Positions 40,562 through 54,965 of a stretch of 64,000 nt of DNA are shown in pieces (the first letter of the stretch is position 1; every line of letters begins with the position of its first letter). Origin of the DNA: Pseudobacter ginsenosidimutans (GTDB lineage Bacteria; Bacteroidota; Bacteroidia; Chitinophagales; Chitinophagaceae). The position numbers were made by a program, and so were the translations under genes. The notes beneath the pieces are model-generated. The model did no database searches, had not been told where the DNA came from, and saw only the letters and a list, made by a program, of their open reading frames with translations. The DNA is taken from positions 372,001 through 436,000 of the forward strand of contig NZ_CP042431.1 in NCBI RefSeq assembly GCF_007970185.1. The letters run 5' to 3'.

Positions 40562-41011
40562 TTACTCGCCCATCCAGGTTTTGAAAGCAGGCACTCTTTC
40601 ACGGCTGATGATGATGGGGTCCGGATGGAGTGGCTTTACTTCCACCCGCAGTTTGCCGTGTGTACTGACCAGTACTTTTTCGATGGCCTCATGACTGATG
40701 ATGAACTGGCGGCTCACGCGGAAGAAGCGTTCCGGAGAGATCAGTCTTTCAATTTCAGTGATGGTATAATCGAGAATATGTTCCCTGTTGTCTGCCATCT
40801 TCACGAAAGTGAGTTTATCGCGGAGATAGAAATACCTGATCTCACTTACTGCAAGTGAGATGAGTTGATGGCCTTTCTTTACAAGGAATCTTGATTTGTA
40901 ATCAGGCAATACTTTTTCTGGAAAGTATTCCTGGAAGAATTGTTTCCAGGCGGTTTCGGAATCGGGCACAGCCTGGTTGAGTTGTTGCATAGCTGCGTGC
41001 ATTGCATTCAT
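40562..41011 (-). CDS. Stand-alone LytTR DNA-binding protein without receiver domain
   Basis: 149 aa. The LytTR domain covers about 45-147, starting YKSRFLVKKGHQLISLAVSEI and including ERFFRVSRQFIISHEAIEKV and the end IIISRERVPAFKTWMG. Normal response regulators carry a 120-residue receiver domain before this; here only a 40-residue helical lead remains (MNAMHAAMQQLNQAVPDSETAWKQFF). The upstream DNA has no open frame encoding a receiver, so this is not a simple truncation. It may be constitutively active or controlled at the level of synthesis. It lies 144 nt from the terminator of RNA unit A. Confidence 0.85.
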   Translation of the reverse strand: MNAMHAAMQQLNQAVPDSETAWKQFFQEYFPEKVLPDYKSRFLVKKGHQLISLAVSEIRYFYLRDKLTFVKMADNREHILDYTITEIERLISPERFFRVSRQFIISHEAIEKVLVSTHGKLRVEVKPLHPDPIIISRERVPAFKTWMGE

Positions 41012-41154: not shown

Positions 41155-41183
41155 AAAAAAAGCAGGTGGTAGAAACCACCTGC
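41155..41183 (-). terminator. Intrinsic terminator of RNA unit A
   Basis: Minus-strand perfect 9-bp stem GCAGGTGGT / ACCACCTGC with loop TTCT, directly followed by a T7 run. This is a textbook intrinsic terminator, yet no protein gene ends here. Confidence 0.85.
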
Positions 41184-41266
41184 GAGTCACATGAGAAAAA
41201 TTCTATACCGCAACTAGGTTAATGATCCAGGGATGAGTTGCGTAAGAAGTAGCATAAGGGAAATCC
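41155..41266 (-). ncRNA. Predicted small RNA, unit A, with antisense match to a susC start
   Basis: About 110 nt. From 5' to 3': a short leader with GGGGATTTCCC, a 7-bp stem (41209-41215 with 41236-41242), the single-stranded linker AGAATTTTTCTCATGTGACT (41204-41185), and the terminator hairpin. Unit B, exactly 300 bp upstream, has the same order and nearly the same linker. Both stems differ between units by compensating changes, and both terminator loops are TTCT. A promoter fits 6 nt upstream of the proposed start. The linker is perfectly complementary to 54946-54965, which covers the start codon of the STN-less susC. No known Rfam family was recognised. Confidence 0.65.
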
Positions 41267-41271
41267 CCGGA

Positions 41272-41300
41272 GAAATATATCAAATAAAATAATTATTCAA
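41272..41300 (-). promoter_or_regulatory. Predicted promoter of RNA unit A
   Basis: On the minus strand, TTTTG (TTG at 41300-41298), an 18-bp spacer and TATATTTC (41279-41272). The -7 box differs from TAnnTTTG only in the last base. The spacing equals that of the susC promoter at 54989-55017. Confidence 0.5.
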
Positions 41301-41450: not shown

Positions 41451-41483
41451 TAAAAATAGGCAGTTCCGAAGAATCGGAACTGC
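41451..41483 (-). terminator. Intrinsic terminator of RNA unit B / transposase gene
   Basis: Minus-strand perfect 10-bp stem GCAGTTCCGA / TCGGAACTGC with loop TTCT, then CTATTTTTA. It ends transcripts from the transposase gene as well as unit B. Confidence 0.8.
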
Positions 41484-41542
41484 GAGTCACATGAGAAAAT
41501 TCGAATGCAGCAACCAATACACCGGGTGGTTGCGAGTGATTA
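41451..41542 (-). ncRNA. Predicted small RNA, unit B, in the 3' region of the transposase gene
   Basis: This unit has the same order as unit A: a 7-bp stem GCAACCA/TGGTTGC (41510-41533), a linker GAATTTTCTCATGTGACTC with one T fewer than unit A, and a terminator hairpin. It starts at the transposase stop codon (41540-41542), so it could be a 3'-UTR-derived RNA cut from that mRNA. I see no convincing promoter of its own; TATGGTTG inside the gene end is a one-mismatch -7 box. It matches the susC start over 15 contiguous nt. Confidence 0.55.
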
Positions 41543-42247
41543 TTTTCCCGGAATGCTTTCTCTTGCAACCATAGCTTTGGACGTATGCAATGGTTGCTGA
41601 TGCAATATGTCCAACAGCATTTCATAAATGTCTGATGAACGGTAATTGTATCTGAATTCAGTTTCTTTTACGTGCAGGTAAAGGGTGCTTCCATTGAGGC
41701 CGCGGAATTTCACGAGTCTCGACTTCAACATATTCCAGAACAGATCGATCTCATCCTGGCTGTTCTTATTGGAGATAGCGCCATTGATACGATGCAATCT
41801 GATATTGTTGAAATCCGCGATGCCTTTATAAATATGCAGACTATGTTTCTCTGCAATTGTTGTACCTTCTTCTATTCGTCCCTTCATCCAATCAGACAGC
41901 CATTCACTCTCAAGATCAGGCAACTTGTCTGCATGGATATGATCATCTTTACGATAGATCCCATAGAAAGGCTTCCTGTTTCCGTCACCGGAATTTTCAA
42001 GGCCGAGGGCTGTATTGTCGATTGGGATAAAAGCCAGTGTTCCTTTTGATATATGCAGGGGATTACGTTCTTCGCAGAACCTGGCAATATGCGTTCGGAT
42101 CAGTTTGAAATAGGCATTCACCGTAATACGGCTGATGCCTGTAATGCTGGCGATCTGTGTGGCTGTCAGATCATCGCAGAATAGTTTAATAAGTTCCCTT
42201 ACCTTCCTTTCGGAAAGGTGGGCACCTTTCAGGTATTTGTTCTTCAT
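41540..42247 (-). CDS. ISXO2/IS1595-type transposase-like protein
   Basis: 235 aa. The N-terminal helix-turn-helix, KYLKGAHLSERKVRELIKLFCDDLTATQIASITGISRITVNAYFK, is typical of ISXO2-like transposases. The core has FIPIDNTALG near the first catalytic Asp position, and the C-terminal block IDLFWNMLKSRLVKFRGL followed by LYLHVKETEFRYNYR. In classical members the late acidic residue is Glu (HINGIExFW); here Asp stands there. I find no terminal inverted repeats or target duplication around the gene, so it may be a stranded or domesticated copy. Unit B lies directly after its stop. Confidence 0.75.
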   Translation of the reverse strand: MKNKYLKGAHLSERKVRELIKLFCDDLTATQIASITGISRITVNAYFKLIRTHIARFCEERNPLHISKGTLAFIPIDNTALGLENSGDGNRKPFYGIYRKDDHIHADKLPDLESEWLSDWMKGRIEEGTTIAEKHSLHIYKGIADFNNIRLHRINGAISNKNSQDEIDLFWNMLKSRLVKFRGLNGSTLYLHVKETEFRYNYRSSDIYEMLLDILHQQPLHTSKAMVARESIPGK

Positions 42248-50300: not shown

Positions 50301-51794
50301 TTATTTATCCCAGAACACTGGTGTCATGGGTGTAATATTTCCCTGTGCCTGAACATTGGCGCTGTTCACGGCATATTCCGCAGAAGGATAGATCAGCCGC
50401 AATGGAATCACCCTGGATCCTCTTGCAGCGTTCACAGAGAGCGGAACATTGGCAGGTACGCCCAATCTCCTGTAATCGTTCCATGCTTCCAGCGGATTGA
50501 TGCCGATCAGGGCAATATATTTTTGTCTGACGATGAATCTCACTTTTGAATCCACTGTAGCGCCAGCATTGGCCCAGTCGGCGCCTTCTGTTTCAAGGAA
50601 GGTGGCAGCTTCGTCATCCGCATCTTCCACACCTAACCAGTAGAAAGATTCATACACAGCATCTTCATAAGCTTCCTGTGCATCACCTGCCAGCCATCCC
50701 CTTGCCACTGCTTCAGCGCGCAGGAAAAGACTTTCAACAGAAGTGATGATCCATTGGTCCTGGTCAAATCCTTTCACCAGTCCTTCTCCGATATTTGAAG
50801 TACGGTCTCCATTGAAATTCACATCCGGGTCTCTTCCATATACGTTACCCACATAAGGCACTGAAGGGTTCAATGGTGAAGGTGCAGGTTTGAAGAAGTA
50901 TCCCAGCCTTGGATCTGCGCCATTTCTCAGCACATCAATGATATAAGCATTGGCACGGAAATATTCGTTGGCCTGGTTACCGGAAGGTGTAAGTCCATAA
51001 GCGCCATAAAAAGGGCTTTGCTTATTGTTATCATTTAAATATCCCGGATTCACAGAAGCGCTTTCATCGAAACTCAACACACCGCCTTTGGCTTCGATCT
51101 TGGCCAGCTCAGCTGTTGGGTTGGGGTTGTTGAGGCTGTTGCGGATCAGCAGGCGCAATTTGATGGTATTGGCAAACTTCTCCCATAATGTATGTTCACC
51201 ATGAAACACGATATCTACTTTTTCATCAACAGCAGTAGGAGAAGCTGCTTCCATCAGACTGATGGCAGTGTCCAGCTTAGCCTGAAGTGAAGCATATATA
51301 TCTTCACCTTTATCATAAGCCGGCGTAGGGAATTCAAGTGCCTTGAAAGTTTGAGAGTACGGAACATTTCCATACAGGTCTACCAGGTTCTGGAAGAGGT
51401 GTGCTTTGGCGATCATCGCCATGGCGCGCATATAGGTCTGGCCTTTTTCACTGGCCTTCCTTTCTGCTACATCCAGGTCGAAAAGCACGTTATAAATGTT
51501 GGCCCATTTCGTTTCCTGGAAAGAGCTGGTGATATTATAGGTAGACTCTTCCGTATTCGGGTTATAGGATCCTGACGGTGACCAGTAACCCATCCAGTTG
51601 GCGAGCCAGCCATAAGCCAGTGCAGTTTGTGCTCCTGTACCGCTCAAAGCATTTGGGATGATCAGGTCTGCAGTGATATTGGATTCGGTCACCGCATTGG
51701 GATTCTTGTTGATGTCCAGTTGTTTCTTACATCCCGCCAAACCCGCTGAGAGCAAAGCAACAGGCAGTATTATTTTATAAATAGAATGTTTCAT
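50301..51794 (-). CDS. SusD/RagB-type lipoprotein (SusD-like 2 group)
   Basis: 497 aa. Lipobox LLSAGLAGC (Cys22), then KKQLDINKNPNAVTESN, the usual opening of the SusD-like 2 group. Late blocks are SVESLFLRAEAVARGWL, QKYIALIGINPLEAWNDYRRLG and PLRLIYPSAEYAVNSANV. It lies 12 nt downstream of its SusC. With the DUF1735 protein it forms a surface complex for an unidentified ligand. Confidence 0.9.
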   Translation of the reverse strand: MKHSIYKIILPVALLSAGLAGCKKQLDINKNPNAVTESNITADLIIPNALSGTGAQTALAYGWLANWMGYWSPSGSYNPNTEESTYNITSSFQETKWANIYNVLFDLDVAERKASEKGQTYMRAMAMIAKAHLFQNLVDLYGNVPYSQTFKALEFPTPAYDKGEDIYASLQAKLDTAISLMEAASPTAVDEKVDIVFHGEHTLWEKFANTIKLRLLIRNSLNNPNPTAELAKIEAKGGVLSFDESASVNPGYLNDNNKQSPFYGAYGLTPSGNQANEYFRANAYIIDVLRNGADPRLGYFFKPAPSPLNPSVPYVGNVYGRDPDVNFNGDRTSNIGEGLVKGFDQDQWIITSVESLFLRAEAVARGWLAGDAQEAYEDAVYESFYWLGVEDADDEAATFLETEGADWANAGATVDSKVRFIVRQKYIALIGINPLEAWNDYRRLGVPANVPLSVNAARGSRVIPLRLIYPSAEYAVNSANVQAQGNITPMTPVFWDK

Positions 51795-51806: not shown

Positions 51807-54800
51807 TTAGAAGGTCAGCGTAATGTATCCTCCAAAAGTTCTGGCAGGTGGCGTAGAGAACACGTTGTTCAAACCGAAAGTGTTACCCGCAGCAGTATAG
51901 TTGAACTCAGGGTCAGTCCACTGGTTGGATGATGGTATGAATGCAAACAGGTTACGTCCGGTAAAACCAACTACAGCTTTTTTGATCACCTGTCCTTCTC
52001 CCACAAACTTGAAAGGAAGTGAGTAAGAGATGGCTATTTCGCGCAGTTTCCAATAGGCAGCGCTGGAGAAATAGTTGGTGCCAATTGAAGTGTTGGTGGC
52101 ACCCACAGCCCAGAAGCTGCGGTTACCGCTGGATGTAGTTACGGTTTGATTTTCTACCATCTTGCCGGTACCATCGTCATACACTGAATTAGGGAATACG
52201 AAACGTTGACGGCCGAATTGTGCACTGCGTTGGGAGATACCGGTGAAGTCCATGTCGGAACCGATACCATGATAAGCGTAGTGACCTCCTTTATAATCCC
52301 AGGTCATGGAGATGGTAAGTCCTTTCCAGGAGAAACTCGGATTGAAACCGAGTGTCCACAGCGGCATCGATCTTCCACGAACTACCAGACTGTCTTCCAG
52401 GCTTGGGTCCCCGGTGATCCTGTCTACAATTACACGGCCCTGTTCATCACGCACATAGTCGCTGAGTTTGAACACGAATGCAGGTTTGCCCACAATAGCA
52501 TAGTTGAAGGCATCTGGAGAGCTGGCAGCGATCTGCGTGAAAAAGTTGGTGCCTCCGATAGAAAGCTCATTGATACCGGGAAAGAGAGATATAATTTTAT
52601 TGTCGTTATACGTAGCATTGAATCCGAAATTGAGTCTTCCGGATCCGATCTTCACTAGCGGTGTAAGATTAAGATCGATCTCAACTCCATAGTTTTTGAA
52701 GTCGGCAGTATTGGTCCTGTATAAAGTAGGTCCGGCAGCTGCAGATTGCTGTACATCCAGGATCTGGTCTGTATTTTTCTGCGTGTAATAAGTTACATCC
52801 ACATTGAACCTGTTCTTCATGAATCCGAGCTCGATACCTATTTCTTTTGAATTTACTTTTTCGGGCTGGATCAGCGGATTGGTAACGAAATTATCTGCAC
52901 CGAATCCGCCAAGGTTACCGAATGGGAATCCCCCTGACTGGCTGAATGTGGGTTCCAGCGCATATGTAAGGAGGTTCACGTTCGCTGATTTGGACCATGA
53001 TCCGCGGAGTTTGGCGTAAGAAAGGATCTTGCTTTCTCCGAGAGCAGGTATCGCATCGGTGAGTAAGAGTGAGGCACTGACTGCAGGATAGAAGTAGGAA
53101 TTGTTATCGATGTTGAGGCGGCTGTCCCAATCATTGGCTGCGGAGAATTCCAGATTGGCCCATCCCTTATAGTTCAGACTTGCCTGACCAAATAGGGAAA
53201 CCAGCCTGTTCTTTGTATTGCTCTCAAAACCTACCGCCTCACCTGATCTGTTGCTCAGGTTATAGAGATAAGGAACCACCAGGTTATTACCCGTGGTGGT
53301 CATATTCTTGGTGCGGTTCTCGCGATACCGTCCACCAACGATATAATTCAAAGTGAAATCAGCTGGTAATTCTTTTCTGCCATTGAGGAAGAACTCATGT
53401 GTGATACGGCTGGCGAAATCACTTCCATCAGCCATACTGCCTGGCGCAGCATCAAATTGCTGACCACGATGATCCTGTGCAAACTGTGTTGTTTCGATGG
53501 GCTGGTTCTCGTTCTTGAAAGTGCCATAAGAAAAAGATGTACCCACACGGTAAGTGGCCTGCAGCCATTCAAAGAAATTGTAGTTGAGCTCCAGGGCGCC
53601 GAGCAGGTTATCGGTCCTTCCTTTGGAGCGATGTGCTTCAATAGCCCAGTATGGATTCACAAAATACTCATTGTAATAATTGGAGTATTGTGCATACTTG
53701 TTGTTCTTGATATCCTTGTAAGATGTGAGGGGCACATGCATCGGCGTATTGAGAACGGTGAAATATACGCTACCATTGTAACTGCTGGCGAAGCGGCCTG
53801 CATAGGCTGCATTATTCACCACATTGTAATTGCTCTGAACATAGTTGAGGTTGAGGGTTGCCTTGAGCTTTCCGTATTCCCTGCTGGTGTTGATACGCAG
53901 AGAGTTCCTCTTGTTCTGGTCTTTCGGCATCAGACCTTTCAGATCTGCAAGCTGAGCGGACATGTAGAAGTCTTTTGCAGAGAAGGCCACATCGGTCTGT
54001 AGCGTAAGACCATTGTTCCAGAATTTTTTCTTTTCGTTTTTGAGCGGGCTGTAGCGTACTCTTTGTACGTCGCCGTCTTCCAGTTCAGGACCGAGATCCA
54101 CCATTTCGCCATTGAATTCCGGACCGAATTGCTGGTTCTCGATGGGGTCGTACAACGGACGTCCCAACGCATCTTCGGAAGTACCACCACCGAAGCGGGA
54201 TTGCATTTTGGGCAGGAAGCTTACCCTGGCAAGCTGAACAGACTGGCCTACCTGGAGATAAGGTTTGGAGGAACCTCTTTTGGTAGTTACCAGGATCACA
54301 CCGTTCACACCATCAGGACCATACAAGGCAGCGGCGGATGCGCCTTTGAGCACGTTCACATCCTCCACATCGTTCGGGTTCAGTACTGAGATGAAGCTGA
54401 GCGAAATGGGGATATTGTCCACCACCAGCAAGGGCTGGTTGTTACCCGTAAGGGAACGGAGACCGCGGAGATTGATCTTGGTTTCTTCAAACACACCGCT
54501 GTTCACCGTGGTGATGCTTAAGCCGGAAACCTTACCGGTAAGACCGTTCTGCAGATTAACGGTCTTTGCCTGGGTGATCTCACTGTTACGCACACGCGCA
54601 GTTGAGTATCCCAGCTCTTTGGCCTGACGGCGTACACCCAATGCCGTTACCACTACTTCCTGGAGATTGCCTGTTTTGGTGAGTGTAACAGAAAGAATGT
54701 CGCTGGAGCCGACAGTTACTTCGGTAGATTCGGTTCCCACCGCCGTGAAAACCAAAACATCCCCGGTAGCCGCTAAGATTCTGAAATTTCCGTTGACGTC

Positions 54801-54959
54801 TGAGGTGACGCCCTTTCCTGAAGATTTGAGAGTGACTGAAGTAAAAGGTACGGGTTCTCCCTGATTATCCCGGACCTGACCGGTTATATACCGGCTTTGG
54901 GCAGTTGCCGATACATATAATAGTACCAGCACTGCGAGCAGTGACAGAATTTTTCTCAT
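51807..54959 (-). CDS. SusC/RagA-type TonB-dependent transporter without STN domain
   Basis: 1050 aa from the ATG at 54959 (MRKILSLLAVLVLLYVSATAQ, a signal peptide). The open frame runs to 55196, but the extra 79 residues look like no signal or domain. After the signal comes the carboxypeptidase-regulatory-like fold directly (YITGQVRDNQGEPVPFTSV), then plug and barrel, ending GGYITLTF. No STN domain and no sigma/FecR genes are present, so it cannot use the switch of cassettes 1 and 2. Its start region is fully complementary to RNA unit A, and its promoter has a palindromic spacer. Operon: SusC-SusD-DUF1735. Confidence 0.92.
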   Translation of the reverse strand: MRKILSLLAVLVLLYVSATAQSRYITGQVRDNQGEPVPFTSVTLKSSGKGVTSDVNGNFRILAATGDVLVFTAVGTESTEVTVGSSDILSVTLTKTGNLQEVVVTALGVRRQAKELGYSTARVRNSEITQAKTVNLQNGLTGKVSGLSITTVNSGVFEETKINLRGLRSLTGNNQPLLVVDNIPISLSFISVLNPNDVEDVNVLKGASAAALYGPDGVNGVILVTTKRGSSKPYLQVGQSVQLARVSFLPKMQSRFGGGTSEDALGRPLYDPIENQQFGPEFNGEMVDLGPELEDGDVQRVRYSPLKNEKKKFWNNGLTLQTDVAFSAKDFYMSAQLADLKGLMPKDQNKRNSLRINTSREYGKLKATLNLNYVQSNYNVVNNAAYAGRFASSYNGSVYFTVLNTPMHVPLTSYKDIKNNKYAQYSNYYNEYFVNPYWAIEAHRSKGRTDNLLGALELNYNFFEWLQATYRVGTSFSYGTFKNENQPIETTQFAQDHRGQQFDAAPGSMADGSDFASRITHEFFLNGRKELPADFTLNYIVGGRYRENRTKNMTTTGNNLVVPYLYNLSNRSGEAVGFESNTKNRLVSLFGQASLNYKGWANLEFSAANDWDSRLNIDNNSYFYPAVSASLLLTDAIPALGESKILSYAKLRGSWSKSANVNLLTYALEPTFSQSGGFPFGNLGGFGADNFVTNPLIQPEKVNSKEIGIELGFMKNRFNVDVTYYTQKNTDQILDVQQSAAAGPTLYRTNTADFKNYGVEIDLNLTPLVKIGSGRLNFGFNATYNDNKIISLFPGINELSIGGTNFFTQIAASSPDAFNYAIVGKPAFVFKLSDYVRDEQGRVIVDRITGDPSLEDSLVVRGRSMPLWTLGFNPSFSWKGLTISMTWDYKGGHYAYHGIGSDMDFTGISQRSAQFGRQRFVFPNSVYDDGTGKMVENQTVTTSSGNRSFWAVGATNTSIGTNYFSSAAYWKLREIAISYSLPFKFVGEGQVIKKAVVGFTGRNLFAFIPSSNQWTDPEFNYTAAGNTFGLNNVFSTPPARTFGGYITLTF

Positions 54960-54965
54960 GTGACT
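54946..54965 (-). promoter_or_regulatory. Predicted small-RNA target at susC translation start
   Basis: The mRNA reads AGTCACATGAGAAAAAUUCU here (as DNA AGTCACATGAGAAAAATTCT), from -6 to +14 of the susC start codon. It is the exact reverse complement of the linker of RNA unit A (41185-41204), and 15 contiguous nt also match unit B. Pairing would hide the start codon. Confidence 0.5.

Follow-up and report, generated by a model that had tools for sequence, protein, structure and literature searches.

The closest described counterparts of the RNAs discussed here are small RNAs (sRNAs) of Bacteroides. The FopS sRNA of Bacteroides thetaiotaomicron covers the susC start region and keeps the ribosome off, as established by experiment, and one member is derived from a 3′ untranslated region (UTR) (PMC11697453). 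A second report describes GibS of the same species, a trans-encoded sRNA whose extended seed pairs around the start codons of its targets, and the DonS-type cis-antisense RNAs of Bacteroides, which act negatively on susC homologues and are encoded opposite them (PMC7366714). We describe two paralogous RNA units, A and B, together with a susC gene in a 64,000-nucleotide (nt) stretch of the Pseudobacter ginsenosidimutans genome (contig NZ_CP042431.1, positions 372,001 to 436,000; hereafter the window, in whose numbering positions are given unless stated otherwise). Comparison of sequences makes it probable that both units are trans-acting antisense sRNAs whose exposed seed pairs at the susC start and blocks the initiation of SusC translation.

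The units resemble GibS in being predicted trans-encoded RNAs with an extended seed around a target start codon. GibS differs in that its targets, as described, are not susC starts, its seed lies at the 5′ end, and it is a single RNA (PMC7366714). With the DonS-type RNAs the units would share a negative action on susC homologues; in contrast to DonS, unit A (41155–41272, − strand) lies 13.7 kb from its target site (54946–54965, − strand), which sets it apart from the cis-antisense class. Features general to trans-acting sRNAs are present in the units: an intrinsic terminator, a conserved structure, and a conserved exposed seed. A literature search that left most subscription papers outside its range turned up no description of an RNA of this kind in Chitinophagaceae.

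A 20-nucleotide match at the susC start codon

The 20-mer AGTCACATGAGAAAAATTCT occurs exactly at 54965–54946 on the − strand, where it covers the susC mRNA from −6 to +14, and at 41185–41204 on the + strand; the unit A RNA has the − strand sequence and complements this 20-mer without a mismatch over the susC start codon. The perfect complementarity from which a preliminary description of this DNA set out is confirmed, and its judgement that a chance match on a start codon is very unlikely agrees with the count in the window: 2 matches with at most 3 mismatches, against 0.02 expected by chance.

Across the 7.8-Mb genome, exact copies of AGTCACATGAGAAAAATTCT are confined to these two, and 3 further sites each carry 3 mismatches. 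One of them (genome position 2216665) stands where another SusC-type gene with a Plug domain begins, the second (4415257) belongs to the 5′ leader of a third gene with this domain, and the last (731930) is at a 114-amino-acid open reading frame (ORF) without a Pfam match. Uniqueness of the match had been named in advance as a point against the idea, as had its absence from susC starts in related strains: the 20-mer is indeed unique in its own genome, yet it stands at SusC starts in relatives. The same 29 nt are found at the orthologous susC start in 4 relatives, and the 15-mer AGTCACATGAGAAAA is at a SusC-type start in all six genomes of the genus (this one and five others). Its gene is the syntenic SusC in four of the five relatives, while the fifth, a fragmented assembly, has it at another SusC. 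Three genomes of the genus (loci L005, L043, and L049) hold a further SusC-type gene with AGTCACATGAGAAAA in its 5′ leader, where it opens an ORF of 35–40 amino acids.

The target gene susC (51807–54959, − strand) encodes a SusC/RagA TonB-dependent receptor of 1050 amino acids (TIGR04056, 505 bits; Pfam), and susD (50301–51794, − strand; PF12771) lies 3′ of it. The preliminary description held that this susC lacks both an STN domain and a sigma factor/FecR pair. The first part stands, as the Pfam scan gave no STN match; for the second, the scanned neighbour proteins, several of which are without any Pfam match, yielded neither a sigma factor nor a FecR family. Some 17–31 nt into the gene, a small hairpin (CACTG-CTCG-CAGTG; 54929–54945, − strand) is kept between genera (L112–L127), once as CACTG/CGGTG with a G:U pair.

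Architecture of units A and B

Unit A is matched as a whole by our covariance model R1 (contig positions 413151–413286) and consists of a pseudoknot, a hairpin, the seed, and a terminator. Its parts, all on the − strand, are the pseudoknot 5′ arm CCGGGGAU (41263–41270); hairpin P1 (GCAACU...AGUUGC, 41210–41241), whose loop contains the pseudoknot 3′ arm AUCCCUGG (41227–41234); the seed linker (41185–41209), in which 41185–41204 complements the susC start exactly; and an intrinsic terminator (41155–41183, with its stem at 41183–41162 and a U run). The paralogous unit B (41455–41551, − strand) has a 5′ pseudoknot arm (41547–41551) that overlaps the last codons of an IS1595-transposase-like gene, a seed linker GAATTTTCTCATGTGACTC (41485–41503), and a terminator stem (41460–41483). 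Each unit has one intrinsic terminator, on the RNA (−) strand, and folds more stably than shuffled sequence (z −4.3 and −4.2 for A and B). The proposal that the linker is single-stranded between two hairpins fits this layout: hairpin and intrinsic terminator flank it, and when unit A is folded without pseudoknots, the bases of its seed match are unpaired with a mean probability of 0.74.

An H-type pseudoknot of 5–11 base pairs between the 5′ arm and the P1 loop is found in all 35 units compared from the own and related genomes. Its arms covary: among 17 distinct arm pairs (for example CCGGGGAU/AUCCCUGG, ACCGGAGC/GCUCCGGU, and CCGGGAAU/AUUCCCGG), 140 of 170 cells pair, against 125.6 (standard deviation 3.1) in column shuffles, none of 10,000 being as high, with one row (L123) that was anchored on the wrong CCGG retained. 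The seed UUUUCUCAUGUGAC is invariant across the compared units, a set selected by that seed, and the terminator stems vary in sequence. Rfam, searched at gathering score, matched nothing in the window; over 8 loci it left the units unmatched, its sole hits being two tRNAs and a SAM riboswitch in other parts of those loci, the presence of a FopS model in the Rfam copy used being not established. A scan of the units at a lax threshold yielded no more than two weak matches (E 0.31 and 1.1).

Predicted pairing strength and targets in the own genome

Units A and B have the seed core in common and differ in how strongly they pair with the window's susC: the predicted duplex energy is −39.4 kcal/mol for unit A and −24.4 for unit B. 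For scale, 200 shuffled seeds set against 51 SusC start regions reach a best energy of −20.3 on average and −30.4 at the lowest. These 51 starts comprise 50 of at least 56 among the matches listed plus the window's own, and their start codons were chosen by a script rule that leaves some doubtful. The preliminary description had suggested that one RNA could silence a whole class of SusC proteins. This is not supported in the own genome, because the window's susC is the only one of the 51 that pairs strongly. In genomes of the Niastella and Paraflavitalea type, the site does stand at several SusC starts per genome among the matches listed.

The same starts display another motif. A TTGC-type pattern ([AC]TTG[CT], CTGCT, or TTGTT), picked after inspection of the sequences, lies at most 14 nt before the ATG in 22 of the 51 SusC starts (L312–L361 and the window's) and in none of 30 other ORF starts in the window; it is maybe the mark of a second regulator of the SusC class.

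Joint change of seed and target

In 13 loci from three genera, a conserved gene block separates the unit from the site-bearing SusC start, at a distance of about 13–14 kb. In loci L112–L131 this block runs through the IS1595-like gene, an E1 dehydrogenase, an FAA hydrolase, peptidyl-tRNA hydrolase, L25, phosphoribosyl pyrophosphate (PRPP) synthetase, RadC, and DUF3467, after which different genera have different susCD sets. Between genera, the syntenic SusC proteins are 27–37% identical to the window's; over four inter-genus pairs, the DNA from −7 to +35 of the SusC start is 81–95% identical, and about half is identical on either side. Genus labels in these comparisons are inferred: g93 is Niastella/Longitalea, g107 holds Paraflavitalea, g8 is Flavihumibacter, and the window's genus is Pseudobacter/Pseudoflavitalea.

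Units in genera g28, g98, g122, g29, and g57 carry other bases next to the CTCATGT core, and where the seed differs, the SusC start regions differ along with it. When sites were sought in three genera with the upstream bases left free, 15 of the 21 profiled start proteins had a Plug domain. The three bases before ACATG agree with the RNA of their own genus in 30.5 of 45 cases, against a mean of 21.3 under permuted labels (27 of 20,000 permutations as high), in a test made with hand-entered triplets for 15 genes from related genomes, the g122 set including a second scaffold (CTG). At three SusC starts of g122, the pairing with the pseudoknot RNA includes a U:G wobble.

The IS1595-like gene also occurs in Chitinophaga, where a different seed occupies this slot. 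The complement of this seed gives 45 matches in 5 genomes, against 10 for the reversed control. Among 30 inspected sites, 6 stand 22–57 nt upstream of a Plug-protein start, 5 coincide with the IS1595 slot, and 5 belong to a second terminator-bearing scaffold, the last two kinds being present in all 5 genomes. In three Chitinophaga genomes (L443, L447, and L451), the seed complement is also found a few bases upstream of the ATG that opens an ORF of fewer than 100 amino acids. Flavihumibacter has 23 sites against 1 for the control, 6 of them in the IS1595 slot and 6 in a second recurring scaffold. Slot and second scaffold share their seed in both genera, and therefore the scaffolds of one lineage share their seed. 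Judged from these sequences, several lineages have SusC start regions that fit their own seed; Flavihumibacter and g98 lend little target-side support.

Distribution of the seed and its scaffolds

The 14-mer core occurs in 47 of 394 Chitinophagaceae genomes, with up to 11 copies per genome, and a reversed-pattern control reaches at most 2 in any genome. Model R1 matches 62 of the 394 at E ≤ 0.01, its E-values being rough. We inspected 152 distinct 14-mer contexts, that is, sites among the matches listed and in the fetched stretches, with identical contexts merged. They divide into 53 RNA units (one, L130, so classed by hand), 63 starts of ORFs of at least 100 amino acids at the site's ATG, and 36 others. 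A script found a terminator on the seed strand in 52 of the 53 units, against 35 of 1500 in the background, and 49 of the 63 start-site proteins have a TonB-receptor Plug domain.

Many of the remaining contexts form a class of their own: 25 of the 36 have a terminator on the opposite, target-like strand directly after GTCACATGAGAAAA, an arrangement seen at 35 of 1500 random positions. These leaders (L098, L136, L155, and 22 others) often open a mini-ORF, MRK-stop, and they precede recurring genes such as an M14 peptidase, a formyltetrahydrofolate deformylase-like (PurU-like) protein, and a gene without a Pfam match. They may be decoys or attenuators. Scaffold E (genome position 2939594) was at first a candidate RNA unit and was rejected; because its terminator and a conserved gene are on the other strand, a leader that carries the target sequence is the more fitting reading.

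Scaffold types A, B, C, and D of the own genome all carry CTCATGTGAC with a terminator 3′ of it. Types C and D are unrelated to the pseudoknot units: C stands beside ilvA and is conserved in all six genomes of the genus, and D carries the seed as well. A SAM riboswitch lies near the scaffold C unit at L195 (1916–2063, − strand).

The IS1595-like gene

Unit B forms the 3′ UTR of the IS1595-transposase-like gene (41540–42247, − strand; 235 amino acids), whose end it overlaps, and unit A follows 300 nt further on. The match of the protein to the IS1595 model (NF033547, E 6e-12) scores 45.8 bits, below the NCBIfam cut-off of 75 for a curated IS1595 transposase, and is accompanied by a weak HTH_23 match. 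Across 31 sequences, the helix-turn-helix (HTH) part is strongly conserved, and two of what we take to be the three catalytic columns, the first and the third, vary. The protein looks domesticated because of this pattern and its low score. Its predicted structure has a mean confidence (predicted local distance difference test, pLDDT) of 77, and a PDB fold search with it found nothing at E ≤ 0.001.

Among 30 loci that have a gene for this protein, 27 carry the seed core on the same strand within 700 nt 3′ of the stop codon, and in several the pseudoknot starts within about 10 bases of the stop. Genes 3′ of the unit are not conserved between genera; they differ across the 13 loci compared.

Proposed mechanism and its likeness to FopS

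We propose that units A and B are genes, or parts of 3′ UTRs, that encode trans-acting antisense sRNAs. In each, the H-type pseudoknot and the terminator hairpin would hold an exposed seed with the UUUUCUCAUGUGAC core, and this seed would pair across the start codon of the susC mRNA, from −6 to +14. The duplex would shut out the initiating ribosome and repress the window's SusC, and susD would probably be repressed as well, by polarity. Several unrelated RNA scaffolds in a genome of this family would share a single lineage-specific seed, and the SusC start regions would change along with that seed from lineage to lineage. The complementarity, the covarying RNA structure, the wide conservation, the placement at SusC starts, and the joint change are properties of the genomes themselves; from them we infer that the units are transcribed, that the duplex forms in the cell, and that repression follows. 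A trans-acting sRNA with its seed at the susC start codon, as the preliminary description had it, is the reading that best fits AGTCACATGAGAAAA at SusC-type starts throughout the genus and the joint change elsewhere.

Most likely, the units would cover the susC start codon and keep the ribosome off in the manner of FopS. The likeness consists in RNA complementary to susC translation initiation regions and in several paralogues with a shared seed (types A to D in the own genome); further marks of FopS are its repression of SusC translation and its binding by RbpB. The layout differs: the FopS seed occupies a single-stranded 5′ end that is immediately followed by the terminator, whereas units A and B have a pseudoknot and a hairpin 5′ of the seed (PMC11697453). 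Units A and B thus lack the plan of 5′ seed, terminator hairpin, and nothing else, to which scaffold C seems to come nearer. Further differences are the other host group, the missing Rfam match, the linkage to an IS1595-like gene, the lineage-specific seeds, and the GUCACAUGAGAAAA leaders; moreover, FopS action is reported from experiment (PMC11697453), and that of units A and B is predicted from sequence. Because the units would work like FopS yet lack its layout, we regard them as a probable variant of the known FopS-like kind.

Several observations weigh against this reading. In the own genome, only the window's SusC start pairs strongly with unit A (−38.2 kcal/mol, the next of the 51 being −19.9). 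Fourteen of the 63 start-site proteins have no Plug domain, M12B peptidase-like and molybdopterin oxidoreductase proteins among them, and the seed of scaffold D is partly inside a hairpin. Genome G098 has the unit, and the 18 kb examined next to it lack ACATGAGAA on that strand; genus g98 has no Plug-protein start among the sites found, and Flavihumibacter a single one among its 23. Most target sets came from searches with the seed complement, so the start-region match is itself selected, and the makeup of the triplet test given above counts here too.

A wider extension is possible, although we hold it only tentatively and think it rather unlikely as a whole: a family-wide seed-switching network, in which unrelated sRNA scaffolds share a seed and lineages change that seed jointly in all scaffolds and SusC starts. 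The GUCACAUGAGAAAA-terminator leaders would be decoys or sRNA-switched attenuators, and the core scaffold would stem from the 3′ UTR of the domesticated IS1595 transposase, whose protein may be an RNA partner.

Alternative explanations

TldR is reportedly an RNA-guided repressor derived from TnpB, a dead TnpB that uses a guide RNA. The present locus resembles it in having a domesticated mobile-element protein beside a structured RNA with a guide-like stretch that matches a surface-protein gene. One may thus imagine that the IS1595-like protein binds the pseudoknot RNA that its own 3′ UTR supplies, with the seed directing the protein to susC DNA, and the closeness of the RNA to the stop codon (often a few bases), together with the conserved HTH part beside varying catalytic columns, speaks for it. 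We nevertheless consider this very unlikely. The protein is IS1595-like and not TnpB-like, its fold search and profile matches pointing to no TnpB origin. The RNA also exists without it: among 20 further loci matched by the model, the IS1595-like gene is present in 12 and absent from the fetched stretch in 8, and the C type (beside ilvA) and D type scaffolds carry the seed with no such gene. Furthermore, the sites are on start codons rather than promoters, and the U:G wobbles at three SusC starts of g122 suit RNA:RNA pairing. That GTCACATGAGAAAA might instead be a DNA operator bound by a protein, with no relation to RNA pairing, is suggested by its presence in either orientation and at three types of location, namely RNA units, the starts of genes, and leaders that precede a terminator. 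Such an operator is very improbable given the fixed strand and spacing, with the terminator on the seed strand in nearly all units, the register of gene sites with the ATG of long ORFs, the pseudoknot covariation, which shows selection on RNA, and the switch of the whole seed in Chitinophaga, which retains complementarity to SusC leaders.

A pseudoknot before a terminator, about 150 nt 5′ of the start codon of a LytTR protein gene (40562–41011) and on the same strand, is what one would look for in a leader or attenuator of that gene. We give this very little credence: the gene that follows changes from genus to genus, whereas the seed and the IS1595-like gene upstream persist, and inspection, without a dedicated search, revealed no antiterminator pairing. 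A riboswitch or leader of the LytTR gene was rejected on the ground that the downstream genes are not conserved. As for a chance match, or one left over from a duplicated inverted fragment, the full match at one susC only in the own genome would agree with it; the pair is conserved in several genera and jointly changed in others, which makes this explanation extremely unlikely and rules out pure chance. A neutral origin of the match followed by selection is possible.

Meaning for SusC control in the family

The units provide sequence evidence for a differently built post-transcriptional control of SusC in soil and freshwater relatives. Because seed and target change together between genera, these genomes offer a natural mutagenesis series for the evolution of sRNAs and their targets. 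Since the RNA resides in a transposase-like gene's 3′ UTR, one may ask whether a domesticated transposase acquired a regulatory RNA or became the partner protein of that RNA. Together, the units point to a previously unreported RNA switch for nutrient uptake.
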